This document shows positions 19,501 to 61,580 of a stretch of 64,000 nucleotides of DNA, piece by piece (the stretch's first letter is position 1; the number at the start of each line of letters is the position of its first letter). Where the stretch lies: the NCBI GenBank assembly GCA_961205875.1, contig OY540813.1, positions 744,001 to 808,000 on the forward strand, in the 5' to 3' direction. The DNA is from Sialis fuliginosa. Its lineage: Eukaryota > Arthropoda > Insecta > Megaloptera > Sialidae. The notes under the pieces are model-generated. The model was not told the DNA's origin, searched no databases, and was given only the letters and a program-made list of their open reading frames with translations. Made by a program: the position numbers and the translations under genes.

Positions 19501-22500
19501 TGCGGATTCCGAGGATTTATTCGAAGATCAAGTTAACGTGTCTATTTCGTCGCTTGAGCTAAATACTGTCACGGAACCTGATAGTTTCAATGAGATAAAT
19601 AATGATAATGATATCGGGGTTTTGGCAAGTTCAGATTCGGATGAAGAAAAAGCTGTAGAAAATAATTTAGAAAATGATGGCGAGTCTGTTAAAAGTAAAA
19701 AAGAAAATGGCGACGATTCGAAAGAAAAGAAAACTGATGATAAAAAAAATGATTCATCAAGTGGTGATGAGGTTGATAAGGAAAAGGCGGAGTGGAGAAA
19801 AGATAAACTTCTAACGGAGAAGCTAGATGCGGAAAAATCTGACAGAAAGAAAACATCAAAAGATGGAAGCTTGGCTTCAAGCGATGATGAAGATAAAAAG
19901 AAGGAAAATAAAGAATCTGTAGAAAAAATGTTTACCTCAAGTGATGAAGAACAGGAATTAGAAGATAAAAAGAAAAGTGAATTAACTGAGAAAATGCTTA
20001 CATCTAGTAGTGAAGAAGAAAAAGAAGATAAAAAGAAGAAAAAGAAATCAAAAGATTTGAGTGATGATGAAGTAAAGAAAGAAGAAAACAATGATGAAAA
20101 AGATGAAAAGAAAGAAAAACCAGAAAAGAGCAGGTATTTCCAACTTTATATTTTTATTATAACCTAACCTGCCCTAAAGAAACAAAAAAAAACATTTTCT
20201 AAATTCTTTTAGGTTGAATAAAATTAACTTTTCAAACAATACTTATTTATTTGCATACCTCATTTTTTTTATTTAATGGCAATTATTATATCTATTATTA
20301 TTTTTTCTAATTGTAAATACCTACGCCAAATTTAAATTAATAATACGTAAAAATGTTCGATTATTGCAACTAAATGTGATTTCGAATTGAACCAATCAAA
20401 TCGCAGATAATCCATGTAATGGCGTCACGTTCCATAGTTTTGATTGGCTTAATGGAAACCGTTTTTCAATTCAAATAATCGGACATTTTGAGCAATTGTT
20501 GTACGATTTCTGTTTCATATTTATTTATTATACATACTTAACCCTCTTTGGAGAAGTGTAATCATTATTTGTTTGTTGTGTTTGTAATTATATGCATTTT
20601 AAAATGCAGCCTTATGGAGTTCATTCAAATCAGGTAAAAATAAATTATTTCAATTTTCAAAAGTGGCTTGACATAATACAGTAGACGTTCTATATTGTAA
20701 ACCTATAGAATCCCCACTTCAACCGTCATTTATGCCGCGAAAACTAGGTGGTAATATGGTATGGAATGTCTACTGTAATTAAAATAACTTTTGGTTAATT
20801 TTAATATATGATTTACTTGAAATATATTTATTATTTTAATATTATCTAGCAATAAAAAGGGAAAGAAAGGAACTGGGAAAAAAAGGAATCGAGTGATTAT
20901 GTCAGAATCTGAAGGTGATTCAAACAAGGAAGAAGATAATCAAGAATCGGATGATGCCAATAGCAATAATAGCGATAACAGTGATGATGCATTCCAAAGC
21001 AAGAAGAAGCGAAAGAAACAATCAACAGATTCAGATGAGAAATCTTCCAGCAGCGAAAAGAAAAAGTAAGTTTGTATGATATTTCTGGCGTAACCGAGTA
21101 CTAACATTATTCTGTTGTTAGAAAAAAACTGAAGAGGATAAAAACTATAAATGATAGCGATGAAAGCACCGATGATGAAGGCGGCAAAAGGAAATCTCGT
21201 AAAAACATCCGTAGCATCAAAGGCGATAAATCGTTATCGAAAACTACCCGGCAAGCGGCTAAAGAAGAAGAAGAAAGAAAGAAGCGTATCACCGACAGAC
21301 AGAAATTGGTAAATTAACATCTGCAACTTCGGGAACGATTAGAAAGTTAAAATCTGTTTATTTTTCAGTATAATCAAATGTTTGATATCGTCGAACAAGA
21401 AAACTCCCGCTTGGATCAGCTTGTTTTGGATTTTGACCCGGAAACGAAGGAAGAGCTTGTCAAAGTCCACCCGAAGCTTGTCGAAAAGTTGAAGCCGCAT
21501 CAGGCAAAGGGCGTTAAGTTCATGTGGGATGCTTGTTTCGAGTCTTTGGAACGCGCCAAGAAGGATAAGGGCTCAGGCTGTATCCTCGCACATTGCATGG
21601 GTCTCGGAAAAACCCTACAGGTATGTTTAATCGACGTAAAAATCAAAGAAAAAAAGTTACAATTTTTTTTTTTAGGTTGTTACATTAATCCATACTTTAC
21701 TGACTCACGAAGAGACTGGTATTAAAACTATTTTGGTCGTGTGTCCGTTGAATACGGTGCTTAATTGGGTTCATGAATTCAAACTGTGGCTTTCGGAGAT
21801 TAACGATGGCGAGGATGTTAACGTCTTTGAATTGTCAAAGTAAGTCTGTTTTTATGATTTTTTGGCTGTATCTTTTAAACGGTTTATTATAACGGTTTGA
21901 AATTTTGATACATTAAATTAGATTATATAACACACATTTTAAGATGATTTTGAAGTTCCTGTGATTTATGGTTACAGAGTTCTATGTTACTGAACACGAG
22001 ATATTTTTAATTATTCTTTATACTGATGATTTTTTACATACTTTACTAAAACAGCTGTAACTTTTAAACTATTTATTGAATCAATTTGAAATTTTAATAC
22101 ATTAAACTAGATTATATAACACACATTTCAAGATGATTTTGAAGTTCCTGTGATTTATAGTTACAGAGTTCTATGTTGCCAACCACGAGACGTTTCTACT
22201 GATGATTTTTTACATACTTTACTTAAACAGCTGTAACTTTTAAACTATTTATTTAATCAATTTGAAATTATATTACATGGAACTAGATTATATAACACAC
22301 ATTTTAAGATGATTTTGAAGTTCCTGTGATTTATAGTTACAGAGTTCTATGTTGCCAAACACGAGACGTTTTTACTGATGATTTTTTACATACTTTACTT
22401 AAACAGCTGTAACTCTTAAACTATTTATTTAATCAATTTGAAATTTTATTGCATTAAACTAGATTATATTACACACATTTTAAGACCAAGCTGAAGTCTG

Positions 22501-25500
22501 TGTGATTTGTAGTTACAGAGTTCTATGTCATCAAACACGAGACATTTTTATTCACGTACTAAAACGATAAAATCGTTGTTTTTTTTTTAAAGATACAAGA
22601 AAAACTTTGAACGCTCTTACCAGATCGACGAATGGCAAGAATGCGGCGGAGTCTTAGTGATAGGGTACGAAATGTACCGCCTGCTCAGTAATGAAACAAA
22701 TAAAAAGATACGCAAGAAGATCTTAAACTCGTTTCAAAGAGGGCTTGTAGATCCAGGTAACTTGTGACGCTTGTTTAATTAAGTCGAGGTAACATTTTAA
22801 CTTGTGTGTGTGTTGTTTCACAGGCCCAGATCTAGTTGTGTGTGATGAAGGTCATTTACTTAAGAACGAGAAGTCCCGACTGAGTATCGCAATGAATAGA
22901 CTGACTACGTTACGCCGTATAGTATTAACGGGAACGCCCGTTCAGAATAATCTTAAAGAATGTAAGTGCAATATCTTTATTTATTACAGGCATACAGAGA
23001 GACAGACATAAAGACTGACAGACAGACATACAGAAAGACAGACATAAAGACAGATGTACAGAAGGACAGCAGACAGACAGACATACAGAAAGACAGACAT
23101 AAAGACAGATGTACAGAAGGACAGCAGACAGACAAAGAGACAGACGGACAGAAATTACAGAAATACAGACAGACAAAGAGATATAAAGACAGACAGACAG
23201 ACAAAGAGACAGACAGACATTACAGAAAGACAGACAAAAAGACATAAAGACAGACATTACAGAAAGACAGACATAAAGATAGAATGACAGACAAAGAGAC
23301 AGACAGACAGACATTACAGAAAGACAGACAGACAAAGAGATATAAAGACAGACAGACAGACAAAGAGACAGACAGACATTACAGAAAGACAGACAAAAAG
23401 ACATAAAGACAGACATTACAGAAAGACAGACATAAAGATAGAATGACAGACAAAGAGACAGACAGACAGACATTACAGAAAGACAGACAGACAAAGAGAT
23501 ATAAAGACAGACAGACAGACATTACAGAAAGACAGACAAAAAGACATAAAGACAGACATTACAGAAAGACAGACATAAAGATAGAATGACAGACAAAGAG
23601 ACAGACATACAGACAGACAAAAAGACATAAAGACAGACATTACAGAAAGACAGACATAAAGATAGAATGACAGACATACAGACAGACAAAGAGACATAAA
23701 GACAGACAGACAGACAAAGAGACAGACAGACAAACAGCCACACATTACAGAAAGACAGACAAAGAGACAGACAGACAAACAGACAGACATTACAGAAAGA
23801 CAGACAAAGAGACATAAAGACAGACAAAAATACATAAAGACAGACATTACAGAAAGACAGACAAAGAGACAGACATACAGACAGACAAAGAGACATAAAG
23901 ACAGACAAAGAGACAAAAAGACAGGCAAAGAGACAAAAAGACAGACAAAGAGACAGACAGACATACAGACAGACATTACAGAAAGACAGACAAAGAGACA
24001 TAAAGACAGACAAAGAGACAGAAAGACAGACAAAAAGACATAAAGACAGACATTACAGAAAGACAGACATAAAGATAGAATGACAGACAAAGAGACAGAC
24101 AGACAGACATTACAGAAAGACAGACAGACAAAGAGATATAAAGACAGACAGACAGACAAAGAGACAGACAGACATTACAGAAAGACAGACAAAAAGACAT
24201 AAAGACAGACATTACAGAAAGACAGACATAAAGATAGAATGACAGACAAAGAGACAGACATACAGACAGACAAAAAGACATAAAGACAGACATTACAGAA
24301 AGACAGACATAAAGATAGAATGACAGACAAAGAGACAGACATACAGACAGTCATTACAGACAGACAAAGAGACATAAAGACAGACAGACAGACAAAGAGA
24401 CAGACAGACAAACAGCCACACATTACAGAAAGACAGACAAAGAGACAGAAAGACAGACAGACAAACAGACAGACATTACAGAAAGACAGACAAAGAGACA
24501 TAAAGACAGACAAAAATACATAAAGACAGACATTACAGAAAGACAGACAAAGAGACAGACATACAGACAGACAAAGAGACATAAAGACAGACAAAGAGAC
24601 AAAAAGACAGGCAAAGAGACAAAAAGACAGACAAAGAGACAGACAGACATACAGACAGACATTACAGAAAGACAGACAAAGAGACAGAAAGACAGACAAA
24701 AAGACATAAAGACAGACATTACAGAAAGATAGACATAAAGAGATAGAAAAACAGACAAGCAGATAGACAGACATACAGTCAGACAGACAGAGAGACAAAC
24801 ATACAGACAGACATTACAGAGAGACAAACAAAGAGACAGAAATACAAACAGGCAAACATACAGACAGATAGACAAACAGACAAAGAGACATAAAGACAGA
24901 CATACATATTTATGATATTGAAGTAAATTAGGACAAAATAATATTCAACTAAAATAAAAATTTCGAATTACGTCTTATTTTCTTGTATTTTAGTCGATAT
25001 TTGTATGTCGAGTTGAAGTTCACTGCAGGAAATATCACTAAAAAATTTAGAATTTTTGATTTTGTTAAAAGTATGTTTATTGTATAGAAAATAACGTGAA
25101 AAGTTGTTTGTTTCAAACCGCAGGTCTGTATCTCAAACCGTTCTCGAGATATAGCCTCTCAAAGTTTTAGTTTTTTTAAATTTTTGGAGAAAAAAGGCCA
25201 TAACTTTTGAACGCGTGATCGGAATTGATTTTAGTTGACGGATTTGAAATCAGCGTGTCAAAATCTATATAATGACATGTATAATACTTTAAAATCCGAC
25301 AAAAAAATTTTGGTCAAAAATCAACATTTTTTTAAGGTATACCCCTTTGAATTTTTTCGATTTTTCGCGAAATTTTTTTTCCCGAGTTTTAAGGTATTAT
25401 ACATGTCATTATATAGATTTTGACACGCTGATTCCAAATCCGTCAACTAAAATCAATTCCGACCACGCGTTCAAAAGTTATGGCCTTTTTTCTTCAAAAT

Positions 25501-28500: not shown

Positions 28501-31500
28501 AGAATCTGTCATTATCTCGGACACGATTTTGATGATGGAAGTAAAAAATCGGGGCACGTCACTTCTACATATCGGCCAGAGAATATATATACCAAATTTC
28601 AAGGTTCCAGCGCATTAAAAATTGATCGATTTTATTCCAGTTTGGTATTTTCGCAATCGTTGTACTCGTTGGATCTGCTGCAGCATTTCCTAGACAGGAT
28701 AGACGAAGCTACCCAGGCTGAGAACAGTTCTGAGCAGTTAGCCGGGCACACGGGTTCCTGGGCGCTCGGGCTCGACTATTTCCGTTTGGACGGCTCGTCC
28801 AGTGCCGAGAACAGAGCCGCCTGGTGCAAGTCTTTCAACCGGGAAGACAATCCGAGGGCCAGACTGTTCCTGATCTCGACCCGAGCCGGAGGTCTTGGTA
28901 TTAATTTAGTCGCAGCTAACCGTGTAATTATATTCGACGTTTCGTGGAACCCGTCGCACGATGTTCAGAGCATCTTCAGGATATATCGGTTCGGCCAGAA
29001 GAAGCCGTGCTACGTTTATAGATTTATCGCGATGGTGAGTGTGTCGAATTACGTACAGCCCGATCATTTTTAGATCAAATTCGATGTAAGATGCCAAAAA
29101 AACTACCTAGTCGAAACTTTTATGTGTGTCCGCCATCTTGGATTTTATGTTTTTGTCGATTTGAACGCGTATTTTGCATTTCTCGATAAAAAAGTTAGTA
29201 ATAAATTTGTAGAGAATTTAATTCTCTACAATCTTCATAGAGTCAATATTGTTGAAAAAACATTATTTATTGCTAGTAATAAGCAAAAAGTGTTAAAAAT
29301 TAGAAGAGTGGCGCAGTTTTTTCAATTTTTGTGCCATTTTTATTAAAAAAAAAACGCATTATTGAACTATCGTCTATTGTGTTCAACAGCGCGAGTTCCC
29401 CCATTTTTCGTGAAAAAATCTGAAATTATTGGGCTAGTATCAAAGAAACGGTTTCGTGTTATTTAAAAAAAAAAACGTTTTCAGGGTACGATGGAGGAGA
29501 AAGTATACGAACGGCAGGTTACGAAGCAGGCGATATCTAAGAGGGTAATCGACGAACAACAGATCGACCGGCATTACAACCAAAACGATTTAGCTGAATT
29601 ATACAAGTACGTATAGGGGTTGTAAAGATAAATTAACGCGCGTCAAATATCTGTGTAAATTTATAGATTCGATCCGGTTCCGGAGGGAGAACGGCCGATA
29701 CCGAAGTTGCCGAAAGACAGGATGTTCGCCGAGCTCCTGCAAGAGCACGAAAGTGTCATATACCGTTACCACGAGCACGATTCACTGCTCGAGAATAAGG
29801 AAGAGGAGGAACTGAACGAGGAAGAGAGGAAGGCAGCCTGGGAGGAATTCGAGAACGAGAAAATCGAAAAACCAGCTCCGTTCACGTTCAACCAAGGTGA
29901 GTTTGGCAACATCGACCGACAGACAGACAGACGAACAAAGAAACGAAAGACGGAATTCGTCCTGGAGCGAACATCGGCCACGATTGAATTCGTTATACCA
30001 GTTTTTTACAGTGCTGTAAGATGGTGCTTTATCACCGTATACAGAATTAAGTTAATCGATACACTACTCTTGTCTTGATAATCCACGTTGAAAGTTATAA
30101 AAAATAATCGCACGAAAATGTTCACTAGTTAATCCCATTCTTTGCCGAGATGACTTTTTCAAGTAACTTACAAAATGTTCTGAAGAAGGTTGTATTCAAT
30201 AATGTGTAGTTTCCAATGAAATGAATGTTTGTTCAGGTATGTTCGGAGGTCCGAGCCGGCAGATAGCGCCCGAGGAGGCGGCGTACGCGATCCAGATAAT
30301 GCTCCGCCAGGAGAACCCGACGTGGCCGAATGAGGAGATACGGAGGACGGTGCCTCTGATCTTGCAGCAGATGTACAGAAAGGCCGTCGACGGTGATTGG
30401 ACGGTGAGTTTTAATTAAATAGAAGCATCGTCTTGTCTGTACTACTGACCGTATTTGTTCTTGTTTGTCCGCAGTTGTATAACAGGGTCGCTAATTTCAA
30501 TGTGACGCTCCAGCAGCAGGTGTTCGCCGCCCAGAATCATTTAATGGGTGGTACGGGATATCAGAATGCCGCCGGCATGCCTATGAAGTAAGTGTGTAGA
30601 TATTTATTATTGATTGATTGATTGATGCTTTTATTATATTAGGTTCTTGACAGCATTGTAAGTATTCAGATGTATTGGTAGAGAGAGTATGCTATATACA
30701 GAATTACATTATAAATATGAAACAAGTATCTTGTACTTCTCTATTTTATTTTCTTAAGTGTTTGAGAGGGGGGGGGGGGAATCATTAAATTTATGTGACG
30801 TCACAACAGTGATTGCGGAGGCGGCTTGACAAGGTGGTGAGGGGGGAAGGGCAAAAAATCATTTGTGTGATGTAATTTATGGAAGGTCCCTATTACAGGG
30901 TGTCCACTTTGTGTTCAGGGAATTTATTGATTTTTTTTTTTTGAAAGTCAGGGAATTTCTTTGAAATTCTGAAGTCAGGGAGTTTATTAATTTTTTTTTG
31001 GAAAGTTAGAGAATTTCTTCGAAATTCTGAAGTCAGGGAATTTATTAATTTTTTTTTTTTTGGAAAGTCAGGGAATTTATTAATGTTTTTTTTTGAGAAA
31101 GTCAGGGAATTTCTTTGAAATTCTGAAACGTCAGGTAATTTATTAATTTTTTTTTTGAAAGTCGGAATTTCTTTGAATTATGAAGTCAGGGAATTTATTA
31201 ATTTTTTTTTTTTGGAAAGTCAAGAAATTTCTTTAAAATTCTGAAACGTCAGGGAATTTATTAATTTTTTTTTTGGAAAGTCAGGGAATTTATTAATTTT
31301 TTTTTGGGAAAGTCAGGGAATTTATTAGTTTTTTTTTGGGAAAGTCAGGGAATTTATTAATTTTTTTTTTTTGAAAGTCGGAATTTCTTTGAAATTCTGA
31401 AAAGTCAAGGAATTTATTAATTTATTAATCATTAAGTTGACGAGCAAAAAAAAAGTTCTTCCACATTCTGGGGGATCCTCGATCACTTCTTCTTGCCCCC

Positions 31501-35947: not shown

Positions 35948-38390
<2,443 letters not shown>

Positions 38391-41300
38391 ATGAGTTATT
38401 CTGCACAGAAATCATATTCCAACGATGGAGATACCGAGTAAGTATTTCTTATTTAAGACAAACTAAAATAAATGACATTATTTTTAAATATTGTATCTTT
38501 CATGATAATTTAAAATAAATACATGTGCAAACAGGTATCTGTCATTGTATTTTCGTATTTCTTTTTTTCAGAGATGATAGCGTATTATACAAAGTCTACG
38601 TTCAAAGAATTGATCCGGAAATGGACGAGGTATTTATAATAATTTTTTTTAATGAATGCACATTTATTCAAAGTATTTAAAAACACTTATTTTCAGGAAT
38701 TGTTAGGTGACCTATTCAGTAAACATGGAGAACCTTTCAAAGTATATATACATCCAGAAAAAAGATTCGGAATGGTTTATTACACATCATACGAGTAAAA
38801 ACAACATATAACAAACCATGTTTGCAATATATTCACATGATATTTTTTCCAGGGAAGCTTGTGAAGCTATTTCTCAGTTTAATATGAAATACCCATTCAA
38901 ATGTCTAGTAAAAATGGCCACACCTCCGACAGAGCGAATCACTGTAGCCGAACTATTAGAAATGAACAAGAAAATTAAACAACAAGCGTATATGTTAGCC
39001 CGCAAAGAAGCTTGTATAAACGAGCTAAAACAAGAATGCGAGAATTTAAGGTATTGTTAATATTAACGGAACCAGTCATTACATTGTTTAAAGGGATTTG
39101 ATGCTTGATTTTAGTATGGATCGGTTTCAAAACAAGTCTAACTACGTTCAGAAAAGACGCTACGGAAGGATCAACGGTCAATACGATGATGATTCATTTG
39201 AAAGTGACGTCAGCGGGTAAGTGTTTTATTTTTAACTAGCCGTTACCCTCGCATGATATTTATGTTGTTAGACATAAAAACCTTGAAGAAGAAGAAGATT
39301 ACAGATTTCTGTTATGATAGTTGATAAAACAGGTAGCATGTACAATCCATTTTTTAATCCAATGTGATTGTAAAGTAAATAATTTTTTCGAAGTACAAAG
39401 TGGCCTATGTCCTTTCTTATGCTGCAAGCTAACTCTCTGCCAAATTTCATCAAGATCGGTTTAGCAATTTAGCCGTGAAAATATAACAAACAGACAGAGA
39501 TAAAAAAAGATGTCTGTCTATCAGACAGAGCGATTGTTTATCTCTATCTGAGATAAACAATTTATCTGTCTCTCTGTCAGACATCTTTATGTGCAACCCA
39601 AACATTTTAACCAAAAGTCAAAAATATCATTTAATATTAATTTACACGTTCAATTATAAAACTATAATACCTCTACGTCTTATTTTTTTGTATTTTAATC
39701 GATATTTGTGTGACGAGTTGAAGTTCACTGCAGGAAATTTCACTAAAAAATTTCGAATTTTTGATTTCGTTAAAAGTATGTTTATTGTATAGAAAATGAC
39801 GTGAAAAGTTGTTTGTTTCAAACCGCAGGTCTGTATCTCAAACCGTTCTCGAGATATAGCCTCTCAAAGTTTTAGTTTTTTCAAAATTTTGAAGAAAAAT
39901 GGCCATAACTTTTGAACGCGTGGGCGGAATTGATTTTAGTTGACAGATTTGGAATCAGCGTGTCAAAATCTATATAATGACATGTATAATACTTTAAAAT
40001 CCGACAAAAAAAATTTGGTCAAAAATCGACATTTTTTTAAGGTATACCCCTTTGAATTTTTTCGATTTTTCGCGAAATTTTTTTTCCCGAGTTTTAAGGT
40101 ATTATACATGTCATTATATAGATTTTGACATGCTGATTCCAAATCCGTCAACTAAAATCAATTCCGACCACGCGTTCAAAAGTTATGGCCATTTTTCTTC
40201 AAAATTTTGAAAAAACTGAAACTTTGAGAGGCTATATCTCGAGAACGGTTTGAGATACAGACCTGCGGTTTGAAACAAACAACTTTTCACGTCATTTTCT
40301 ATACAATAAACATACTTTTAACTAAATCAAAAATTCTAAATTTTTTAGTGAAATTTCCTACAGTGAACTTCAACTCGTCATACAAATATCAACTAAAATA
40401 CAAGAAAATAAGACGTAGAGGTATTACAAATTCCTTCGGTAGTTGTTTTAAGGATATACAAATGCAAATTTTGCGCATATAGCGTTTTGAAGATCCGAAA
40501 AAACATTTTTTTCACTCCACCCTACTGTTTATGTCTGTCTGATAGAAAGACTGTGTTTCTGTCTGTCTGTCTGTCTGACAGACAGACACTTTTTTCCATC
40601 CTTAATATATATAAAGCTCAACGTCTCTCTGTCTGTCTGTCTGTCTGTTAGTGCGCTTATCACTCGAGAACCACTTATCCGATTTACGTGTTTTTTTTTT
40701 TAATTCATAGGTTCGTTCTCTGGCCAGGTTATAGGCTATATTTTGTTAGGTTAGGTAACATAACAACTAAGCAGTGACAATAATAGTAAATCAAGTCGGA
40801 ACAATTTTTGCCGTCGACGCGCTGTTTTGCAATACGCTGCCTAAACCGTTCAATAGATGTAGATCAAAATAATGTATTAAAGAATTGTGTAGAATCAAAA
40901 GTTCTGCAATAAAGTCCGCGACACCATATGTCTAACTTTTATATTTAAGCCACAATGACTGCTTTTATGTTACAAAGAAAACATAAAATATTTGGGTTTT
41001 GTTTACGTGGTCTTATGACCTGCAAAACATTAATCCTTATCGAAATAAATGATTTCATCGTCATAAGTACTTAATGTAGATATAATTTGCCATTTACAGC
41101 ATCCAATTTGGTCGTATAGTTTAGAAAATATCGAAATATATGTTATACAGGACATATTATTCGCGCGTTGTGACCGTGCGCGGGGTGCGGCGAGGGGTGT
41201 GCCAAGTAGACTCATGGCAAAGTATGATCACAGACCGGTATTCTTTTGATTGTCAATTGTTTATTTTGTTTTCAATAATTAACTTTTAAATTTAAATAGA

Positions 41301-44300
41301 ACAAAAATTATTTTTACTTTTTGTTCTGATTCGCTTTTGTTAGGTAGGTAATTTAAGTGTTGTTTGGTTTTTATTACAAAAATAACTAATCATGTTTTAC
41401 TTAATTCAACTATATATATTTTAAATCCTAAACAATAATTCCATAGTCCACGCGAGCGAAGCCGCGTGGGCCCAGCTAGTATTTGTATGAACAGTATTGA
41501 TAATCCTACTACTATAAATTTCTCATAATCACCCATTTATGTTTTCAGGGATGTAGATTTTTCCGATTATCCGACAAGCCGGTACAGGAATTACGCAGAG
41601 ACCTACATGAACATGTGGATGCGTCGAGAAATGCCCCACATTTTTAGGTAACGATTGAAATGTATTTAAAAAAAAAACGATTCGACGATTCTAACTACAA
41701 ACTTGAATTGCAGTAAATTGAACGGCGCGGGAGACCATCGTTCTGCTTCTCGGCAGTCGAGGTACAGTTCTAACAACGGAGACGGTCGCAGAGATAGGTC
41801 GTACAGTAGAGGACGATTAAATTCACACAACGATGATAACTTTGAAACTAGCTCGCAGCACAGCAGACACAGAAGTAAGAGTTCGTCAAGACAGACAGAG
41901 CAGCGTAACTTTGAAAATAAAAAAGCACCGAATACACAGAAGTTTGAGAATAAAATTGCCCCGATTACCCCGAAGTTTGAGAATAAAATTGCCCCGACTA
42001 CCCCGAAGTATGAAAACGATCGAGGCGATGGATCGTACGTGAACAGGCGATACAACCAACAAGAATCAAACAATAGACCGGTGTTTAATAAACCGAACGT
42101 TTCTGGCCCGAATAAGAATTACAGTATGCAGAAGAACAGAACTGATTTTGCAGGGAATAGAAGTTACAACGGCCAGAATAAATATCCGAGCGTTAAGAGA
42201 AAAGATGGTGACGACGGTGAGGCTTGGGGAGAAGCGACGCAAAAACACCAAGAACGGTCGAGTTTGGTCGGTGTGCCTAGACCGAATCTGATTTCTAAAC
42301 CGAATCCAAGCAGGCCGCAAGTTCCGGTTAAACAGTACAAGTGCGTTGTTCCGTGTAGATTGCCGGAAGATATCTTCACGGACGTTAAAGTCGAATACAT
42401 GGAATCGGAAACAACTGGTTGGGTTTCGTTGGTCAAGGATGAAGATTTTAATCTCGACGTTCTGGCGAAAGTGAACGACCTGCCTAAGAAACCAATGTCC
42501 CCGTTTGTGAATGATATTTGTATGGCGCAGTATGACGGTATATGGTGAGTATTTATCTTGGTGTCTGGGTGTTACAGCGTGACTAGTTTCTGGGAAACTG
42601 AAAAAGTCAGGAAATTTGGTTGGAAATCAGGGAATTTGGTTGGGAGTCAGGAAATTTGGTTGGAAATCAGGAAATTTGATTGGAAGTCAGGGAATTTAGT
42701 TGGAAGTCAGGGAATTTGATTGGAAGTCAGGGAATTTGATTGGAAGTCAGGGAATTTGATTGGAAGTCAGGGAATTTGGTTGGAAATTAGGGAATTTGTT
42801 TGGAAGTCAGGGAATTTGATTGGAAGTCAGGGAATTTGATTGGAAGTCAGGGAATTTGGTTGGAAATCAGGGAATTTGGTTGGGAGTCAGGAAATTTGGT
42901 TGGAAATCAGGAAATTTGATTGGAAGTCAGGGAATTTGGTTGGAAATCAGGGAATTTGGTTGGAAGTCAGGAAATTTGGTTGGAAGTCAGGAAATTTGGT
43001 TGGAAATCAGGAAATTTGATTGGAAGTCAGGGAATTTGGTTGGAAATCAGGAAATTTGGTTGTAAATCAGGAAATTTGGTTGGAAATCATGTAATTTGGT
43101 TGGAAGTCAGGAAATTTTTTGTAAAAATGTATTTTTGAGTTCCATATTCTTCAATATAACGTGTAAAATATGCTTAAAAAAAACACAGAGAAAAACGTAA
43201 AAAGTCACCTGCAAAAACGGGGAATTTTGTTCCAGAGAAAGACTGTGTTAGATAAGGAAGTGTGTTGAGTGTTTGTTTTTTTTTTACAGGAATCGTGCGG
43301 TTGTGTTAAAAGTGTTGCCGAATAAGTTTTTGGTTAGGTTTATCGATTTCGGGAATACGGAATATGTTACGGGTGGGTTGTGCGAGCTGGACGAGGAGAT
43401 GAAGAATATCGGAGGGCAGGTTGTTAAGATAAGGCTTGATGATGGGTCTGGTTGTAAACTCGAGGACCAGAAGGTGATGAAGGTCAAGCCGGTACGAAAG
43501 GTAAGGTTTTTTACGTATTTTTTTGGATTTAGAATAATATAAAATACAGATAATAAAACAGCCAAGTCACATGATAGGGTTCCGTAGCCATTCTCACTAC
43601 GGTTTATAAAAAAAGATTGATTCCAAAATTTTCCATAAACTATTTTTGCTACAGTGTTTGTTATTATTAGAGATTGGAAAAATAGTTGTTATTTTCAATA
43701 AAATAGTTACTAGTTAATTTTTTTTTCGAATAATAGTTGTTAAATAGTTTTTTTTACGATTTAATAATAATTAGTGCAAACCAAGCAGTAAAAAGTATCG
43801 CAAATAGTTTTAAAATAGTTGGAAAGATATGATTATGATAATTTCTACTTCAAATGATAAAAGAAGAATTCAAATAATTAAAAAAAGTTTTAATTAAAAA
43901 TTAATTATAAAAATTTAAATATGATTAATTGTTTTTGTATCGACAGGAAGGGGAGATAATTGTTGTTCACGTACCTAATGGATACTATCCAATGAATAAA
44001 CAAGCAACCGTAAAACCACCTTTGTAAGTCTGATTTTAATTAACGGCGTATTTAAAGGGGAAAGCTACTGTGATGGGAAAAAAGCGATTTTTTAAAGTAT
44101 GTATACATATTTAAAAATATGTGCAAAAAAAAAGTTCAAATTCCGAAAATTGCCCGAGTTAGAGCCTTTTCACACATTCCCGGTCGCCGGGTAAATGTGA
44201 AAAACTGAAAAGGCTCTTACAGTCAATTTAGTGAGACAAGGTAGCTCGGACCTTAGACAAGGAAAGATATAGAACTCATAACAATATCTAGCATTGTTGC

Positions 44301-47300
44301 CATATCGTTTCACAAGTCATTGGCGTATCATTCGGATTTTAAAATAAAAATCAATTGTTCGAATTATACAATTAATAAATAATAAACGTTTTATATTGTC
44401 TTTAATAGTATTTCAGTGATAATTGATTAACAGAGAAACGTCTATTTGCAATTATATCATCTCTTACAGAACAAATTCAATTGTAATTTAAATTTTAAAG
44501 CATATTTATATATTATAAATTTTTGACTGACGCCTCTGATATATGTATTTTCATAGAAATGCTTATGCCGTGTTCAGACCGAAAAAACAAAACAGCAACA
44601 TCGTGTCTTTTTGACAAATGTGCAATAAAGCCTATGCATTTTTAAATACGACGTGTTTTCAAACACCGTGTTGCTGTTTTGTTTTCTTTGGTGTGAACAC
44701 CGCATTAGATAAGGAAAGATAAAGAACAAATAACACAATATCTAGCATTGTTGCCATATCGCTTCACAAGTCATTGGCGTATCATTCGGATTTTAAAATA
44801 AATATCAATTGTTTCGAATTATAAAATTAAATTAATAATAAATGTTTTATATTGTCTTTAAAAGTATTTCAGTGATAATTGATTAACAGAGAAACGTCTA
44901 TTTGGAACTATCATCTCTCATACATACTAAATTCAATTGTAATTTAAAGTATATTTACATATTATAAATTTTCAACTGACGCCTCTGGGATAATATGCAT
45001 GGAAATGACGAAACTGACATTTAAGAAAAGATGGCCGCCGTATAATTTTGATAACAGTTTAATATACGGACTAGCATTGGTTGTTATGTATCCATAATCT
45101 TTCCTAATCTAAAAAAAAGTGTTAAAAATGAAAAAAAATTCAAACCGTCGCCATTTTGTGAAAAAATAAAATAAAATAAAACGGCTACGCACAAACGATA
45201 GCTACATTCATATAGATATTGATAAAAAAACAATTTTTTTCTGATAAAACCCCGAAATTTTAATGGGGCAATGGAGAAAAATTAGAGGCTCATTACTTTG
45301 ACAATTTTTAATATTTTTCAATAAAAAATTGTATTGAATAAGTTGAATATATACTTAATAAAATGTCCTCTACCCCATCTTAAAACAATTAGTTATACTA
45401 GTGAAAAAAATTGCCAAACATTTTTTGACCCGTCACAATGGCTTTCCCCCATAAATTATTTCGGTTTTATAAAATTATTATGATTTCGGTTTGTTTTTTT
45501 TTAGTTCGTCTTCAATTTTGAATAAAAAACAGACATCTAATAAAATAAATGGGTTCAGGTGAGTAAATATATAAAATGTGTTATCGCAATCGTTGTTTAA
45601 TTATTGTATTTATTTTCAGCACTATTTTGGAACATTTTGAAGTGGGCGATGTAGGTTTCTTAGCCGTCAGATCTTTGCTGGGGAAAAACAATTGCACGAT
45701 AACAATTGCATCGCAGAAATTTGTACATCAAATTGAGATTGTAGAGAATTTAGGAAAGGAGTATGAAAATCTGAACGGCGTTAATCACATGTAAGTGATA
45801 TTAAAAATAATATCATTTTGTTGTCTCTACTTGAATAGGTGATTTAGGGGGTTTTTAGGGTGCTGAAACAGAATCTGTTTCCCAAAATAAAATTTATTAA
45901 AAATGTTTATAAAATTAACTGTTTCAATTGCGACAAAAGTTACATAGGACAAACTAAGATATCGATAGACATTAGATTTAAAGTTTTTTTTTTGTCGGCC
46001 TGACTGTTGAAATGTTATATTTCAGAGCTCATATTGGAGATTACGTCGCTGCCCTTTGTGAAGATAAGTGGTCAAGGGCTATAGTTCTCGGCACAGAGAA
46101 CGATAAGAAGGCGTGGCGTGTGGCTTTCCTTGATGAAGGCGTGTGCCATCTGGTCTCGCGAACTTTCCCGTTGCAGGATAAAGATTTCGATATACCGGAG
46201 TTCGCGTGCTTGTGTTCGATTGTCAGTGTTCAAGACAACAAGTGTGAATTTGAGGTTAGTTTTTCGAAATGTCATTTTCGGTGAAAGTGCTTTATTCAAA
46301 GGGCTGTACATTCTGAACAATTCGTCAGATTGTTTTGAAATTTCAGTACTTGAAACTAGATTATATAACGATCGTTTTAAGTTGGTTCCAAGGCGTGTGT
46401 GATTTATAGTTCCAAAGTTCTATGTTGCCAAACACGAGACTTTTAAAAAAATCTAAAAATCGGTGTTTTTTTTTTTGTACTTGACTTAATGGGTTGTAAC
46501 TTTTAATCAAATCATTGTAAATTTTTGAAATTTTAATACATGGAACTAGATAGTACAATGCACATTTTAAGCCGATTTCGAAGCGCGTGTGATTTATAGT
46601 TCCCGAGTACTATGTCGTCAAACACGATGCGTTTTTATTTACCCAATCGACGATATTGACAGGTTCAAGACATCTTCTTGTTCAACGTGATTTCGATCAC
46701 CCGCATCCCGGAACTGACCGTCAAGTGCCAGCTTAGATGCGAAAAGACCGAAGAGAACGTGGCAGTCGTGAACCTGGTGCAGTGGCGTCCGAAGGTACTC
46801 GACGCGAACGAATCTCTGATCGACGTGCCGTCTTCCAAGGACGTTTTCATGGCATCCTACCTGCCCGTCGCTCGGCCGGAGAGCGGCGACGTCGTCTACC
46901 TGTGCAACGTCAGGAGCCAGAACGAGGCTTGCATACAGAATCTCAAGATGCAGAAAAACGCGAGCGATCTGCACAGAAAGATGCAGAGGTTCGCTGATAA
47001 ACGTGAGTTTTATTTAATTAAAATTTTGGTGATTTATTTTTGAAAACTTTGTCGGTAGCGTAACTCAATTTCTATTTAATGAATCGACCTATAAAATTTA
47101 CCAGATACTTGTCAGTGATGCCTCTATCGCTGCGTGAAATATTTTTTTGTTTTGACGTATATTTTTTTTTATTTGCAAAAGAACGAAGTTTTCAAAATTT
47201 TGTGAAATTTTTAATTTTCAAAATTCTGAAAAAAATATTCCATGACGCGGAAGATACAATGAAAAAATATTTTGTTGGAGAAAAACAGCTCTAGAACGTC

Positions 47301-50300
47301 AAACGTAGAACTTTTTTATTTTTTTTTTAGTGGGCCGCCATCTTGTGGCCGTATCTCGGCCGTCGTGTAATATTTTTTAACGAAAAAAATTGTGCATGCT
47401 CTCAAAGACTTATACAACATATACGTGTGATTGTATTTTTTTTTTAAATAACGCTTTTTTCTTAAAAAAAATGTTTTTAAATAAATCTATTTTTTTCCTA
47501 TCAAGTTATAAAATCGTGAATTTTTTTCAAGTGTCCACGGGGCGATAAAATTTTTTCAGATGATTGTAAAGCTTGAAGCTTCAGCTTCAATCTCCACCAT
47601 TTAAATTTCTTCTATGATTTTTTTTGACTGAATTATTCAATTTCAAAGCGAATACTAGAATTTCATTGTTTCCAGTAACGTCTCTATCGAATCCTCCGAT
47701 AGTGAACCAACTAGTAGTTTGTAAGTTCTCTGGAGATGGCGAATGGTACCGTGCTGAGATACGGAAAACGTTAGGAGCCACCGTAGAAGTAATGTACATA
47801 GACTACGGGAACATCGAAGACATTAACGTGACACTTTTACGTGAAATGTTACCTGAATTCACTGATGTGCCTACGTGCGTTTGTAAAGTGACATTAAAGG
47901 ATGTCCCTAAGCAGAGTTTCACCGTTCAGCAGAAGAGTTACTTGCCTGCCGTTCTGGGGAATGTTAAATTCAATATCGTAAGTACATAACAATCACTCAG
48001 TTTTTAAATAAATTATCACTATTTGACTCAGTATTCTTAAGGAGGTTGGGGGAAGTTACTTTTGAGGGGAAGGCGGTGCGGTAAGACGCAGTACGTCTTG
48101 TTTTTCTCACATGCACTCATGTATTTGTCATTACTTGTCATTTTACAATGCCAGCGCCGTTAAAAACACGTTGAAAACACAGTACTGACGAGAGTTAACT
48201 TGCGTTTATTTCTATACATTGCTACTGAAATTACAATATGAATAGTAATTTTTGCGTGCAGTTTAATTTGTTATATATATACTATTAATAATATAAATAA
48301 TTTTACACAATCGTATTGTCTTTTAATAAAAAAATTAAGTCTCGAAAAAATACTTTTTTTTTGTTTTAAAAAAAAATTAAATATGGAGATTGTAAAAGTT
48401 AAAACCGATAGTATTTTTTGATACAGAATTGAAATTTTTATTCGGCAACTATTTTTTTTATTAAGAAACAAAAGTAGCGGCGACGTTTTCTAGAACGTAT
48501 TATCTTTTATAGTTTTACGAAGGTTCAATCGAGAACGGAGTGACGTTAGTTGACAAAAGCGGCGAAATCTTCAACAAGAAAATCCTGTCTTTGCGAACTT
48601 CTACCCCCGAACCGAAAACTTCAACCCCGATTTCGAATAACGGTCGTTTTCAAGATAATTTCAGTCCGTCGACTTCGAAAGTCGAGTCTACGAATAAAAA
48701 TGTGGCGAAGGTTAGTTCTCCGGGCGGAAGTTGTGTTAGTGAGAGTAAAGGTGCGGTTAGGAAACAAAGATCTTTACCGAATTCGGAATCGGACAAGTCG
48801 GAGGTTTCGGTGGGAAGGAAAACGTGTCGAGAGGTGAAGAAGGATGAAGACGTTACCGTTCCAGTACGGGTTCTTCCAAAAGGGAACGCTGAGGTTAGTT
48901 TATTTTATTTATTTAGCTTTTTTTTCTAGAGAAATTTGACCAGTAATTTTTTTTTTTTTTACAAATATTCAACTATACTTGAAGACAGAAGGGTTAAAAA
49001 AATAGAAATAGAAAATTTTTATTTTTTTTCAGAAAGAGGAATATTTATTCTGTTAAAAATAAATTATTCACATTTTTAGCAGTGTTTTTATGTTGTTTTA
49101 GACTTTTAGCAGAAATGAATAAAAATCGTTTCATATTTTGCGACATAGTACTTTACTCAAAGGGCCGTAACTTCTGAACGATTAATTGTAACTTTTTGAT
49201 ATTTTAATACGTGAAACTAGATTAGCTGGCGCGTATTTTAAGACTAATGTGAAGTTTGTGAGGTGTATAGTTCCCGAGTACTATGTCGCTAAACATTAGA
49301 TATTTTTATTTTATTTTTTAATTGTTGACGTAGTTATTGATTGTTAAAATATTTTAGCATTAAATTAACGTAATTCGAGTTGGTAAACCTGGCGTGAATA
49401 GATATAAACGAACTGAGAATTTTATTTTATTTTAATTGTTGACATAATTTTTGATTGTTAATATTCTATTTAACATTAAATTGACATAAATTTCAGTTGG
49501 TATACCTGGCGGAAACAGAAATAACAAACGAACTGAGAATTTTATTTTAATTGTTGACATAATTTTTGATTGTTAATATTCTATTTAACATTAAATTGAC
49601 ATAAATTTCAGTTGGTATACCTGGCGGAAAGAGACATAACAAACGAACTGAGAATTTTATTTTAATTGTTGACATAATTTTTGATTGTGAATATTTTATT
49701 TGACATAATTTCAGTTGGTATACCTGGCGGAAACAGATATAACAAACAAACTGGGAATTTTATTTTAATTGTTGACATAATTTTTGATTGTTAATATTTT
49801 ATTTAACATTGAATTGACTTAATTCCAGTTGGTATACCTGGCGGAAACAGATATAACAAACGAACTGAGAATTTTATTTTAATTGTTGACATAATTTTTG
49901 ATTGTTAATATTTAATATGACATTAAATTGACATAATTCCAGTTGGTATACCTGGCGGAAATAGACATAGCAGGCGGGCTGATATCCGTTTGCACTCACG
50001 ACGCGAACGAGATCGAGTTTGCAACGGAGACGCTGACGGCACAGATAGACGAGTACGTGAGAGCATTGGGTCCGAGCGAACCTCACGTCCCTGAGGAGGG
50101 CGGTTATTGTCTCGCTTTGTTCGACGGTAAGTCACCGACTCGCCGGCGTTATTTGAAATATCTGTTACGATGATCGGGGGGTTTGTTTCTGTTGCAGATG
50201 TGTGGTACCGAGCGATGTGTATGTTGTCGAACAAGAAGGAGGTGACCGTTGTGTTCATTGACTTTGGAAACGTTGCGGCCGTTTCGCCTAAGGATATTAA

Positions 50301-51741
50301 GAAATTACCGGAGAGGTTTGCGAAATACACCGCGCTCTCGGCCGTCTGTAAGATCGACGGTGAGTATCTATAGTTTTAATTATTGTGTTTGGGAATCCTG
50401 ACAAAAGGCCGACATGGACTAAAAGTTTACAGACAAAAAGCCGACATAGACTAAAGGCTGTCATGGACAAAAGGCTGACTCTCAAAAAACCGGCATAGAC
50501 AAAAGACCAACATAGATAAAAGGCTGATATTAACAAAAAACCAACAAAAAAAGGCCGATATAAACAAAATACTGACATAGACAAAAGAAAGACACTTTAA
50601 AGACTGACATAGACAATAGACAGAAATTTACAAAAGGCTGACATAGAAAGAAAAAATACATCCAAAAGGCTGACATAGACAGAAGAAAGACATCCAAAAG
50701 ACTGACATAGACAAAATACCGACATAGACAAAAGACTGACATAGACAAAAGTAAGACACACTAAAGACTGACATAGACAATAGACAGAAATTTACAAAAG
50801 GCTGACATAGACAGAAGAAAGACATCCAAAAGACTGACATAGACAAAATATCGACATAGACAAAATACTGACATAGACAAAAGTAAGACACACTAAAGAC
50901 TGACATAGACAATAGACAGAAATTTACAAAAGGCTGACATAGACAGAAGAAAGACATCCAAAAGACTGTCATAGACAAAAGTAAGACACACTAAAGACTG
51001 ACATAGACAATAGACAGAAATTTACAAAAGGCTGACATAGACAGAAGAAAGACATCCAAAAGACTGTCATAGACAAAAGTAAGACACACTAAAGACTGAC
51101 ATAGACAATAGACAGAAATTTACAAAAGGCTGACATAGACAGAAGAAAGACATCCAAAAGACTGTCATAGACAAAAGTAAGACACACTAAAGACTGACAT
51201 AGACAATAGACAGAAATTTACAAAAGGCTGACATAGACAGAAGAAAGACATCCAAAAGACTGACATAGACAAAATATCGACATAGACAAAATACTGACAT
51301 AGACAAAGGTAAGACACACTAAAGACTGACATAGACAATAGACAGAAATTTACAAAAGGCTGACATAGACAGAAGAAAGACATCCAAAAGACTGACATAG
51401 ACAAAATATCGACATAGACAAAATATCGACATAGACAAAATACTGACATAGACAAAAGAAAGACACCCTAAAGACTGACATAGACAATAGATATAAATTA
51501 CAAAAGTGTGACATAGACAATAGACAGAAATTTACAAATGGCCGATTCTCAAAAAGCCGAATTTTGTTTAAATCCATTAAATATTATTTCAGGTCTTCCC
51601 GATCTCTTGAGTCCGGAGCAGGAAACCAAACTGGCTTCGTTGATAACTCCGCAGCACGTTTACTCGGGTGAAGTTCTGTCTAGCGGCGAAGATAACATCC
51701 ACGTGGTCAGGCTCCCCCACGTTACGGCAGCTTTTGACTGA
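38391..51741 (+). CDS. RRM plus four-Tudor-domain protein (vreteno/TDRD-like)
   Basis: Probable germline piRNA-pathway scaffold; Tudor domains of this type bind symmetrically dimethylated Arg tails of PIWI proteins. Exons: 38391-38437, 38572-38629, 38697-38794, 38853-39050, 39115-39216, 41549-41647, 41714-42544, 43290-43500, 43947-44023, 45505-45558, 45620-45790, 46026-46254, 46663-47002, 47676-47977, 48513-48893, 49943-50126, 50198-50359, 51593-51741; phases agree, about 1230 aa. Order: RRM (about 17-92), short coiled coil (ELLEMNKKIKQQAYML), Arg/Ser/Asn-rich linker, Tudor 1 (VRFIDFGNTEYV), Tudor 2 (WRVAFLDEGVCHLV, degenerate), Tudor 3 (WYRAEI, VMYIDYGNIEDI), a Ser/Lys linker, Tudor 4 (WYRAMC, VVFIDFGNVAAV). 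Drosophila Vreteno also joins an RRM to C-terminal Tudor domains but has two, so orthology is not certain. Introns are rich in repeats. Confidence 0.88.
39280..39505 (+). repeat. Dispersed retroposon tail, copy 3 (Tudor-gene intron)
   Basis: GATAGTTGATAAAACAGGTA, CCTATGTCCTTTCTTATGCT and CAAGATCGGTTTAGCAATTT lead into CAGACAGAGATA, then a small palindrome of GTCTGTCTATCAGACAGA type up to about 39590. Confidence 0.65.
39589..40425. mobile_element. Long foldback element, copy C (Tudor-gene intron)
   Basis: A left extension (CAACCCAAACATTTTAACCA, TACACGTTCAATTATAAAAC) shared with copy D leads into the palindrome, which starts TACGTCTTATTTTTTTGTAT and ends GAAAATAAGACGTAGAGGTA. Arms are about 350 bases each with the turn near 40050. 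Confidence 0.88.
40595..41475 (-). mobile_element. Non-autonomous dispersed element, copy 2 (Tudor-gene intron)
   Basis: Reverse orientation to 2430-2816: it begins TATATAAAGCTCAACGTCTC with a CTGTCTGT run and ends CACGCGAGCGAAGCCGCGTG then GGCCCAGCTAGT. About 430 internal bases (41010-41440), including a GC-rich patch near 41160-41200, are absent from copy 1. Confidence 0.65.
42590..43135. repeat. GTCAGGGAATTT minisatellite (Tudor-gene intron)
   Basis: About 28-30 units of 18-19 bp, TCAGGGAATTTGGTTGGAA with G/A variants, run almost without interruption. The same core is inside the MITE at 30896-31551 and the array at 53830-54350. Confidence 0.92.
43501..43946 (+). other. Tudor-gene intron, AT-rich
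   Basis: TGATAGGGTTCCGTAGCCAT near 43571 is a fragment of a common insect transposon tail (a relative is near 14045). Degenerate AATAGTTGTTATTTT repeats follow to about 43810. Confidence 0.4.
44161..44217. repeat. 57-base hairpin (Tudor-gene intron)
   Basis: AGAGCCTTTTCACACATTCC then CGGTCGCCGG then GTAAATGTGAAAAACTGAAA and AGGCTCT fold into an almost complete stem with one bulge. It may be a tiny MITE or a structured intronic RNA. Confidence 0.55.
44235..45000. repeat. Direct duplication of ~280 bp (Tudor-gene intron)
   Basis: AATATCTAGCATTGTTGCCA, TTCACAAGTCATTGGCGTAT, AGTATTTCAGTGATAATTGA and CTGACGCCTCTG appear in the same order at about 44260-44540 and 44715-44990. The MITE at 44566-44704 lies between the two copies. 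Confidence 0.85.
44566..44704. mobile_element. PIF/Harbinger-like MITE
   Basis: The ends TGCCGTGTTCAGACCGAAAA and TTGGTGTGAACACCGCA are imperfect inverts; inside them AAACAAAACAGCAACA pairs with TGTTGCTGTTTTGTTT. TTA lies outside both ends (44563-44565 and 44705-44707), the 3-bp duplication usual for PIF/Harbinger. Confidence 0.8.
45860..46003 (+). pseudogene. Penelope-like retroelement fossil (GIY-YIG endonuclease fragment)
   Basis: The frame from 45860 reads FIKNVYKINCFNCDKSYIGQ followed by TKISIDIRFK. The pattern I-x-C-x-x-C-D-K-x-YIGQT matches the start of the GIY-YIG endonuclease of Penelope-like elements. Only this short fragment remains, in the intron just before the Tudor-gene exon at 46026; it is old and not functional. 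Confidence 0.6.
46310..46640. repeat. Family B repeat, two units (Tudor-gene intron)
   Basis: GAAACTAGATTATATAACGA, TGTGATTTATAGTTCCAAAG and TATGTTGCCAAACACGAGAC, then a second unit with GGAACTAGATAGTACAATGC and TATGTCGTCAAACACGATGC. Confidence 0.75.
47041..47675 (+). other. Tudor-gene intron, T-rich
   Basis: A GTGGGCCGCCATCTTGTGGC motif near 47331 and poly-T runs; no coding or clear repeat structure. Confidence 0.35.
47978..48512 (+). other. Tudor-gene intron
   Basis: AT-rich with a short palindrome AAGACGCAGTACGTCTTG near 48084; nothing else recognised. Confidence 0.35.
49140..49310. repeat. Family B repeat, one unit (Tudor-gene intron)
   Basis: GTAACTTCTGAACGATTAAT, GAAACTAGATTAGCTGGCGC and GTACTATGTCGCTAAACA match other family B units. 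Confidence 0.7.
49380..49942 (+). repeat. Tandem array duplicating a 3' splice site and exon start
   Basis: Five upstream copies of the sequence at the 3' end of the intron and the first ~20 bases of the exon at 49943. Copies begin at 49380, 49497, 49612, 49715 and 49829 (spacing 117, 115, 103, 114, 114). Copies 2-5 read TTCAG or TCCAG then TTGGTATACCTGGCGGAAAC, then AACAAACGAACTGAGAATTT. The true exon starts CAG then TTGGTATACCTGGCGGAAAT. Reading on from a decoy acceptor in the same phase meets a TAA after about 17 codons. Confidence 0.92.
50380..51545. repeat. GACATAGACA minisatellite (last Tudor-gene intron)
   Basis: Units of about 100-130 bp built from AAGACTGACATAGACAATAG, ACAGAAATTTACAAAAGGCT, ACATAGACAGAAGAAAGACA and TCCAAAAGACTG, with an optional insert of GACATAGACAAAATATC type. 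Six to seven large units plus degenerate flanks. Like the ATRX array at 22975-24905, it is strand-biased, with few pyrimidines apart from ACA steps on the sense strand. Confidence 0.9.
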
Positions 51742-52330
51742 CGGCATCCTCTCATTAATTATTTACGTAAGAAAACATAACTATTTTTTAAATCGGTTTT
51801 TATTTTTCTGTATCAAGAAAGAATTTATTTTGTGATTATTAATGATTTAATACGAATCAATGTGTATTTTATTGAAGAATTTTTTATATTTTTTAAAAAA
51901 TATTTCTAATCTAATTTACGCGATATTTCTTGTCGGATTTTTTTTTATCAGTTGTACCTCCTCCCTTCCCTCTCTTCCCCCTTTCATTCTCTCTCCTCCA
52001 GGGGTTATTTTAAGAAGAAAACAAATTTAAGCTGTTTTAGAGAAAATGTTTTGGTCCTTCGAGCAACCGAAAATGGTGTTGTGTTCTTGATGAATTTCAT
52101 TAAGGTTATTTCAATATTTCAGGGGCCAAAACTGGTCAGTAAAATCAGTGATTTCAAAACGACACAATTACCGTGAATGTAAAAAAAAATTTGGGAACAA
52201 GTCGCCATATTTTCTAAACAATTGAATGTATGAAAAAAAAAGTTTCTTACTTTTTTATGATCTTTAAAATTATGTAATTTTGGATATACCGTTCCATTTG
52301 ATTTTGTTGAAAACGAGCATGTACCCCTCG
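51742..52330 (+). other. Downstream of the RRM-Tudor gene (3' UTR and flank)
   Basis: The stop codon TGA is at 51739-51741. I see no AATAAA close by, so the 3' end is unassigned. A CT-rich run (CTCCTCCCTTCCCTCTCTTC-like) lies at about 51956-51996. Confidence 0.35.
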
Positions 52331-53804: not shown

Positions 53805-54582
53805 GACGGTTTTCCACCAAAACAACAATTCAAAGTCAGTGAATTTGGTTAGAAATCAGGGAATTCGGTTGAAAATCAGGAAAAGTCAGATAATTCGGTT
53901 GGGAATCAGAGAAAAGTGAGAGAATTTGGTTGGAAATCAGGGACAAGTGAGAGAATTTGGTTGGGAATCAGGGAAAAGTAAGAGAATTTGGTTGGGAATC
54001 AGGGAAAATGAGAGAATTTGGTTGGAAATCAGGGAAAAGTCAGAGAATTCGATTGGTAGAGAAAAGTGAGATAATTGGGTTGGAAATCAGGGAAAAGTGA
54101 GAGAATTCGGTTGGGAATCAGGAAAAAGTGAGAGAATTTGGTTGGGAATCAGTGAAAAGTGAGGGAATTCGGTTGGGAATCAGGAAAAAGTGAGGGAATT
54201 CGGTTGGGTATCAGGAAAAAGTGAGAGAATTTGGTTGGGAATCAGTGAAAAGTGAGGGAATTCGGTTGGGAATCAGGGAAATGTAAGAGAATTTAGTCGG
54301 AAATCAGGTTGGTCAGGAAATTCGGTTGGAAATCTGAGAAAAGTCGAAAGATTTGGTTGGTGGGAAATTTTAGTAGCAATGCCAAAGCACCGCCGTCGAA
54401 TCTGCATACGCTTTTAAATAAAGATAATATAGATTTATTACGTGCAATCGTTTTGAAATTAAGTCACGTAGAGATTTACACATTTAGTGCACAAAATTAA
54501 GAACAGAATAGACTATTTAATCTTGTAGTTTAGTTTTACAAATGTTTTTGTTACCGTTTGTCTGCTTTGCTGGAAAACCGCC
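53805..54582. mobile_element. Probable MITE with internal TCAGGGAA minisatellite
   Basis: The left end GACGGTTTTCCACCAAAAC and the right end CTTTGCTGGAAAACCGCC are imperfect inverts. The interior 53830-54350 is a degenerate array of GGTTGGGAATCAGGGAAAAG and TGAGAGAATTTGGTTGG units sharing the TCAGGGAATT core of 42590-43135 and 30896-31551. Confidence 0.6.
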
Positions 54583-61439: not shown

Positions 61440-61580
61440 AAAGGTTGTAATTAGTAAATTAATTTTTGGATTGTTTTGAAAGTTTAGTAAATAAAACTAG
61501 ATTATATAACACGCATTTTAACACCAATCTGAAGTTTGTGCGATTTATAGTTCAATAGTTCTATGTTACCAAATATGGCA
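61440..61580. repeat. Family B repeat, one unit
   Basis: AAAACTAGATTATATAACAC, GCATTTTAACACCAATCTGA and TAGTTCTATGTTACCAAATA match other units. Confidence 0.7.

Follow-up and report, generated by a model that had tools for sequence, protein, structure and literature searches.

A probable mirage-type minisatellite at the splice acceptor preceding the fourth Tudor domain of an RRM/Tudor gene

Mirage minisatellites and the present locus

Tandem repeats lying over splice sites have been described in amphioxus as "mirage" minisatellites, a name that goes back, as cited in PMC3087553, to work on the gene Adh3. The subject of the present analysis is an array of similar organization found in a stretch of 64,000 nucleotides of Sialis fuliginosa (contig OY540813.1, positions 744,001 to 808,000; the whole of this stretch is hereafter called the window and provides all coordinates), in which the end of intron 15 and the beginning of exon 16 of a gene encoding an RNA-recognition motif (RRM) and four Tudor domains occur six times in tandem. 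The gene model to which these numbers refer was built from sequence alone, open frames having been linked across GT..AG sites by visual inspection, and its start codon is assumed. We consider it quite probable that the array is a mirage-type minisatellite whose extra acceptors are dispensable passengers, the true site being picked by virtue of its exon context. Indeed, the unit spans the intron–exon boundary, splice signals are kept in copies 2–5 and the inner units are homogenized whereas the edges are diverged, so that the array can be regarded as a new example of the known mirage kind, situated in this case at the acceptor of exon 16, where Tudor 4 begins.

The best term of comparison is the mirage of the amphioxus globin gene BflGb6 as depicted in the excerpted text of PMC3087553. 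This mirage comprises six units in one haplotype, as does the array described here; its inner units are homogenized to the exclusion of the edge units, and many, albeit not all, of the units keep their splice signals, while RT-PCR (reverse transcription PCR) suggests that regular splicing is undisturbed. The two cases differ in the length of the units (150–160 bp in BflGb6, 103–117 bp here), in the nature of the host gene (a cephalochordate globin as opposed to an RRM/Tudor gene), in the number of alleles seen (two haplotypes with six and three copies in amphioxus, a single sequence here) and in the type of data, which include RT-PCR analyses of splicing for BflGb6 and consist of sequence alone in the present case.

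The amphioxus genes Adh3, troponin C and PGBD5 also resemble the present locus in having tandem repeats over splice sites; according to the excerpts of PMC3902484, Adh and troponin C are said to yield no aberrant mRNAs and the authors think that there is no interference with splicing in PGBD5. The latter repeat consists, unlike the present one, of three imperfect copies of 108 bp (PMC3902484), while the Adh3 units, known via citation in PMC3087553, are as short as 10–72 bp. In the intron gain at AG/GT proto-splice sites treated in PMC2891723, tandem duplication multiplies splice signals, as it does here, but the product is said to be a new intron, whereas in the present gene the acceptor alone has been multiplied, within a pre-existing intron. 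Tandem repeats at exon–intron boundaries, which may form new introns, are likewise mentioned for human duplicated genes in the part of PMC2812944 considered. Intron gain of this type presupposes a usable donor and a usable acceptor in each unit; a usable donor is lacking in the present array, whose in-unit donor, TTG/GTATAC (the slash marks the exon–intron junction), is weak, with a score of –2.07. Among the matches listed in a search of titles and abstract beginnings of the open-licence literature, no mirage array was recognized beyond the two amphioxus papers. NAGNAG acceptors are spaced by a few bases, whereas those of the array are more than a hundred base pairs apart, each preceded by branch-point-like words. 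What the array does share with the NAGNAG type and with other closely spaced tandem acceptors, which PMC2891723 mentions, is that the acceptors compete for one and the same exon.

In a host that is not a lancelet, a six-copy case residing in a gene of the piRNA (PIWI-interacting RNA) pathway type would mean that the mirage kind is no lancelet oddity. Furthermore, the array amounts to a natural competition test, in which near-identical acceptors are placed in series and differ mainly in what follows them downstream, and allows one to ask whether it is the exon context or the order of transcription that decides the choice of the acceptor.

Layout and probable turnover of the acceptor array

The six units, whose exon sides begin at intervals of 117, 115, 103, 114 and 114 bp, were detected by Tandem Repeats Finder (TRF) in the window as one array (Table 1) having a period of 114 and 87% matches and crossing acceptor 49943, that is the intron 15/exon 16 junction; a six-copy repeat cannot be due to chance. 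The first-pass annotation of this DNA had placed six acceptor copies, spaced by 103–117 bp, at the end of intron 15, and both the copies and their spacing are borne out by these data; the position at which it had made the array begin, 49380, is where the exon side of copy 1 starts, but the TRF array begins 64 bp further left. It had also spoken of five decoys preceding the real acceptor; of these, copies 2–5 have the CAG, and the acceptor of copy 1 has lost it and is degenerate. Finally, copies 2–5 had been credited with keeping the CAG and about 20 exon bases before diverging: they do keep them, exon bases 1–19 showing no differences among copies 2–6, but the likeness continues to about base 42, copies 5 and 6 having the same base at 15 of the 23 positions from 20 to 42. 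A query consisting of two units (49715–49942) found no match in the 64-kb window outside 49308–49972 at E 0.01, which at this threshold rules out that the array is an element dispersed elsewhere in the window.

Pairwise identity is 93.5–97.5% among copies 2–5 and lower at the edges, copy 1 being 83.5–86.1% and copy 6 83.3–86.6% identical to them and 77.4% identical to each other; inner copies that are alike and edge copies that are diverged constitute the pattern expected of an array in turnover. In the comparison of copies 5 and 6, differences are found at 6/96 positions to the left of exon base 20 (0/19 in the exon start, 6/77 in the intron) and at 8/23 in exon bases 20–42, the simplest reading being that copy 6 contains an exchange-like break, with renewal extending into the true exon up to approximately its base 20 and homogenizing the left part, while the sequence beyond would have remained untouched, retaining an older divergence. 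Over its first 45 bases, the true exon differs from the decoy consensus at 11 positions, five of which are changes from G to A located between bases 28 and 36, a pattern in line with a drift to AT after a copy has fallen in an intron.

The array probably originated from the tandem duplication of ~117 bp, extending from within intron 15 to approximately base 42 of exon 16, and a 5-bp microhomology, the word GATAT shared by the native intron and the true exon and located close to each of the presumed limits of this segment, may have started this first duplication; the same word recurs, however, within the units at 49401, 49736 and 49850, and little weight attaches to five shared bases in AT-rich DNA. 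The extra copies would subsequently have expanded and been homogenized by unequal exchange or gene conversion, as the copy pattern suggests. Invariant in copies 2–6 are the exon start (CAG and 19 bases) and, to the same extent, an intronic block that is 35 bases long and takes up 37 columns of the alignment, two of them being gaps. Since the latter block is longer and equally invariant, the exon start needs no special constraint and its invariance was rejected as evidence of it; the alignment of copies 2–6 displays no excess conservation at the decoy splice site. As to the capture of a splice site, six merged arrays, the present one among them, cover 2429 of the 13355 bp of the gene, and 28 arrays, obtained by manually merging 50 TRF rows, cover 8493 of the 64000 bp that make up the window; one out of the 34 splice junctions of the gene is crossed by an array with at least 10 bp on each side. 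Placing the six arrays of the gene at random would cross more junctions than this, and that one splice site is captured is no surprise, because the gene is so rich in minisatellites. Indeed, the idea that a minisatellite unit had happened to capture a functional splice site, put forward earlier as one of two options, is the one that best fits the array and its copy pattern.

Table 1. Coordinates of the array, of its units and of the surrounding elements of the RRM/Tudor gene
Feature	Position	Strand	Basis
Gene model with 18 exons, from the assumed start codon to the fourth base after the stop	38391–51745	+	open throughout, Pfam domains
Exon 15, donor GAG/gttagt	48513–48893	+	donor score 8.17
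Intron 15, 1049 bp, contains the array	48894–49942	+	gene model
GATAT, native intron left of copy 1	49299–49303	+	also at 49981 in true exon
Minisatellite, ~114 bp x 5.8	49316–49969	+	TRF score 909
Copy 1 exon-like part, 5 codons then stop, acceptor degenerate (TTCGAG)	49380–49421	+	acceptor score 0.66
Copy 2 exon-like part, CAG acceptor	49497–49538	+	acceptor score 6.60
Copy 3 exon-like part, CAG acceptor	49612–49653	+	acceptor score 6.60
Copy 4 exon-like part, CAG acceptor, ~11 bp missing before acceptor	49715–49756	+	acceptor score 7.59
Copy 5 exon-like part, CAG acceptor	49829–49870	+	acceptor score 7.59
Exon 16, true acceptor (copy 6, score 5.94), Tudor 4 start, donor ACG/gtaagt	49943–50126	+	gene model, Pfam, matrix
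Exon 17, Tudor 4 core (DVWYRA...VVFIDFGN)	50198–50359	+	gene model, Pfam, structure matches

Proposed selection of the true acceptor and rival explanations

Exon 16 is in phase 0 and its first codons specify the initial strand of Tudor 4, the LVYL at its start aligning with the VVYL of Tudor 3 (segment limits chosen by hand), and because it begins at this strand 49943 is the right acceptor on protein grounds. On the spliced model, this is the only site to open exon 16 and Tudor 4, which upholds the earlier claim that use of a decoy entails the loss of Tudor 4; the early TAA also predicted at that time is encountered after 17 codons in each of copies 2–5, but copy 1 yields 5 codons (LVNLA) followed by TGA. 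From these premature stops to the last exon junction there are 406–738 nt in the case of copies 2–5 and 891 nt in that of copy 1, so that any mRNA spliced to a decoy would be an expected target of nonsense-mediated decay.

Productive splicing is likely to occur at the true acceptor, the nearest to the strong donor of exon 16 (score 9.82), and this acceptor, the only one leading into a short GC-rich exon, would be chosen by exon definition, leaving copies 2–5 as competent-looking yet dispensable passengers. In fact, with the exon 16 donor the predicted exon length is 184 nt from the true site and 298–747 nt from the other copies, and the GC content between approximately exon bases +20 and +100 is 57% after the true site as opposed to 16–21% after the other five. 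The GC step measured over 60 bases is, at the true site (0.32), the largest among the 17 real acceptors, compared with 0.12–0.15 in copies 2–5 and 0.03 in copy 1. In RNA accessibility, which we count for neither side, the mean unpaired fraction from –20 to +3 is 0.458 at the true site, the highest of the six, and 0.263–0.429 at the other copies. Branch-point-like yTnAy words are present within 50 bases upstream of all six acceptors and of 14/17 real ones (49943 being counted in both sets), such words being frequent in AT-rich DNA and the GC content of the window being 32%. Moreover, it is nothing unusual in this gene for acceptor-like words to be passed over, as they presumably are: among the 482 AG words that stand unused in its introns, counted with the first 30 bases of every intron excluded, 22 reach the score of the true site. 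Eight of these 22 are found in intron 15, namely copies 2–5 and four sites outside the array, one of which, at 49033 (+), has with 12.23 the top score among the unused acceptor-like sites in the introns of the gene. A cassette or poison exon in each unit was also considered and rejected, no donor above 2.75 being present in copies 2–5.

Several points weigh against the choice of the true site by exon context and against the passenger nature of the copies. Copies 2–5 look usable as acceptors and slightly outscore the true site (6.60–7.59 vs 5.94), although the matrix, built from the remaining acceptors of the gene, relies on 16 sites only, and 6 of these 16, when scored with the leave-one-out procedure, fall below 5.94 (3.51, 2.80, 0.03, –1.50, 3.46 and –2.78). 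Thus, the strength of the sites alone does not appear to explain why the decoys should be ignored, and the leak may be sizeable; the GC step, on the other hand, is a partial cue, as the values of copies 2–5 fall within the range of the real acceptors (0.02–0.32). The authors of the amphioxus study themselves note that duplicated signals could serve as cryptic sites (excerpts of PMC3087553). As to the history of the array, the significance of the left versus right difference between copies 5 and 6 (Fisher p 0.0009) and that of the best breakpoint, base 20 (permutation p 0.009), are indicative, the ranges having been chosen after seeing the alignment, and the random placement of the six arrays, with a mean of 5.1 junctions crossed and one or more crossed in 98.8% of trials, ignores selection against arrays in exons and provides an upper guide only.

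A reading that overlaps with the preferred one, and that we hold as a tentative possibility, regards the array as a slightly harmful passenger, causing a steady, unregulated leak into decay, with a copy number drifting under weak selection; this would agree with copies 2–5 being competent on paper and with the lack of visible constraint on them, but exon definition may let the true site win completely. An actual splicing rheostat, an idea of the first-pass annotation, is improbable. In the form considered here, a proportion of the splicing, depending on copy number or cell type, would go to the decoys and throttle the full-length protein via nonsense-mediated decay or, in a variant to which we give the same low credit, generate a 1083-amino-acid form without Tudor 4. 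The higher scores of copies 2–5, the early stop of every decoy product with two junctions still downstream and the general notion that upstream acceptors are transcribed first speak in favor of the rheostat; however, nothing indicates that the decoys are under selection, the invariant intronic block being longer than that of the exon, intron 15 contains in 49033 an unused acceptor-like site of higher score that lies outside the array, and normal splicing is reported for the amphioxus mirages in the excerpts of PMC3087553 and PMC3902484, so that the proposal is left without support. Still more doubtful is the view that the number of mirage copies sets the germline level of the full-length RRM/Tudor protein, more decoys resulting in more decay or more frequent loss of Tudor 4; if true, an unstable repeat would tune a transposon-silencing gene between individuals.

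That the recorded copy number is wrong on account of an assembly or haplotype artefact is very unlikely, in spite of the fact that misassembly of tandem arrays is generally common and that the BflGb6 array was apparently misassembled in the amphioxus draft genome (excerpts of PMC3087553). The copies bear their own substitutions and indels, the closest pair (copies 2 and 3) having 3/120 differences, and because of this several copies are to be considered real even if their number were wrong. Finally, the succession of CAG, TTG and GTATAC in copies 2–6 might evoke a ladder of recursive splicing, in which the acceptor of each unit, followed 3 bases later by the donor TTG/GTATAC, would allow stepwise removal of the intron. 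This reading is hardly credible, insofar as the score of that donor is below those of 17/17 real donors (the lowest being –1.97 and the other 16 at least 2.65) and the word GTATAC is present in the true exon, too.

The host gene and other features of the window

With its phases consistent throughout, the gene model forms one open frame of 1230 amino acids, in which Pfam recognizes RRM_1 (3e-07) and TUDOR (2.6e-58 in all, in four stretches), and the solved structures matched by the protein are those of TDRD1, Drosophila Tudor and Tudor-SN. This domain content agrees with the earlier attribution to a piRNA-type Tudor gene and recalls an RRM/multi-Tudor protein of the type of Vreteno and TDRD1 from the piRNA pathway, a name that refers to domain content only. 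In Vreteno, as in this model, an RRM is followed by Tudor domains (excerpts of PMC10711660). According to the same excerpts, silkworm Vreteno combines an RRM with a MYND and three extended Tudors, while the present gene shows four Tudor matches but none to MYND; Tdrd1 of mouse and fish contains four Tudors without an RRM, which is present here. Of the features of a Vreteno orthologue, the RRM and several Tudor domains are found but the MYND zinc finger is not, no Pfam match to it being obtained at E up to 0.1 in the 1230-amino-acid model, built without transcripts.

Other minisatellites are present in the same gene. Exon 7 contains a coding one (41910–42013, 33 bp x 3.2) specifying FENKIAPTTPK-like repeats, and 60 bp after this exon intron 7 carries 25.7 copies of a 20-bp unit (42604–43117), which has the word TCAGGGAATT in common with two further minisatellites of the window (30915–31386 and 53832–54308). 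Intron 17 (50360–51592) is mostly minisatellite (50400–51459), with overlapping TRF periods including 17, 32, 66 and 98 bp.

In intron 15, copy 1 contains donor-like words at 49369 (6.23) and 49393 (4.65) that, paired with the high-scoring acceptor-like word at 49033, might delimit a non-coding exon. A repeat of ~150 bp with inverted ends (GCGACATAGTACT / AGTACTATGTCGC) occupies 49140–49289, ending ~25 bp to the left of the TRF array; its relatives, 70–78% alike, are at 14720–15040, 21864–22552, 46286–46624 and 61474–61566, and three of them lie within a 176-bp tandem array.

Elsewhere in the window, a poly(A)-binding protein with four RRM stretches and an MLLE is encoded by a single uninterrupted open frame at 35951–37849 (–), and a match to the helix-turn-helix (HTH) of Mos1-type transposases (HTH_48, 5.8e-06) at 29785–30051 (–) is probably a mariner remnant. 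The repeated stretch at 10267–10581 (–), 10946–11161 and 40228–40479 looks, by eye, like a mobile element or its remnant, and a long ACAG-type simple repeat (22986–24906) is located shortly after an open frame resembling, by eye, a helicase exon.
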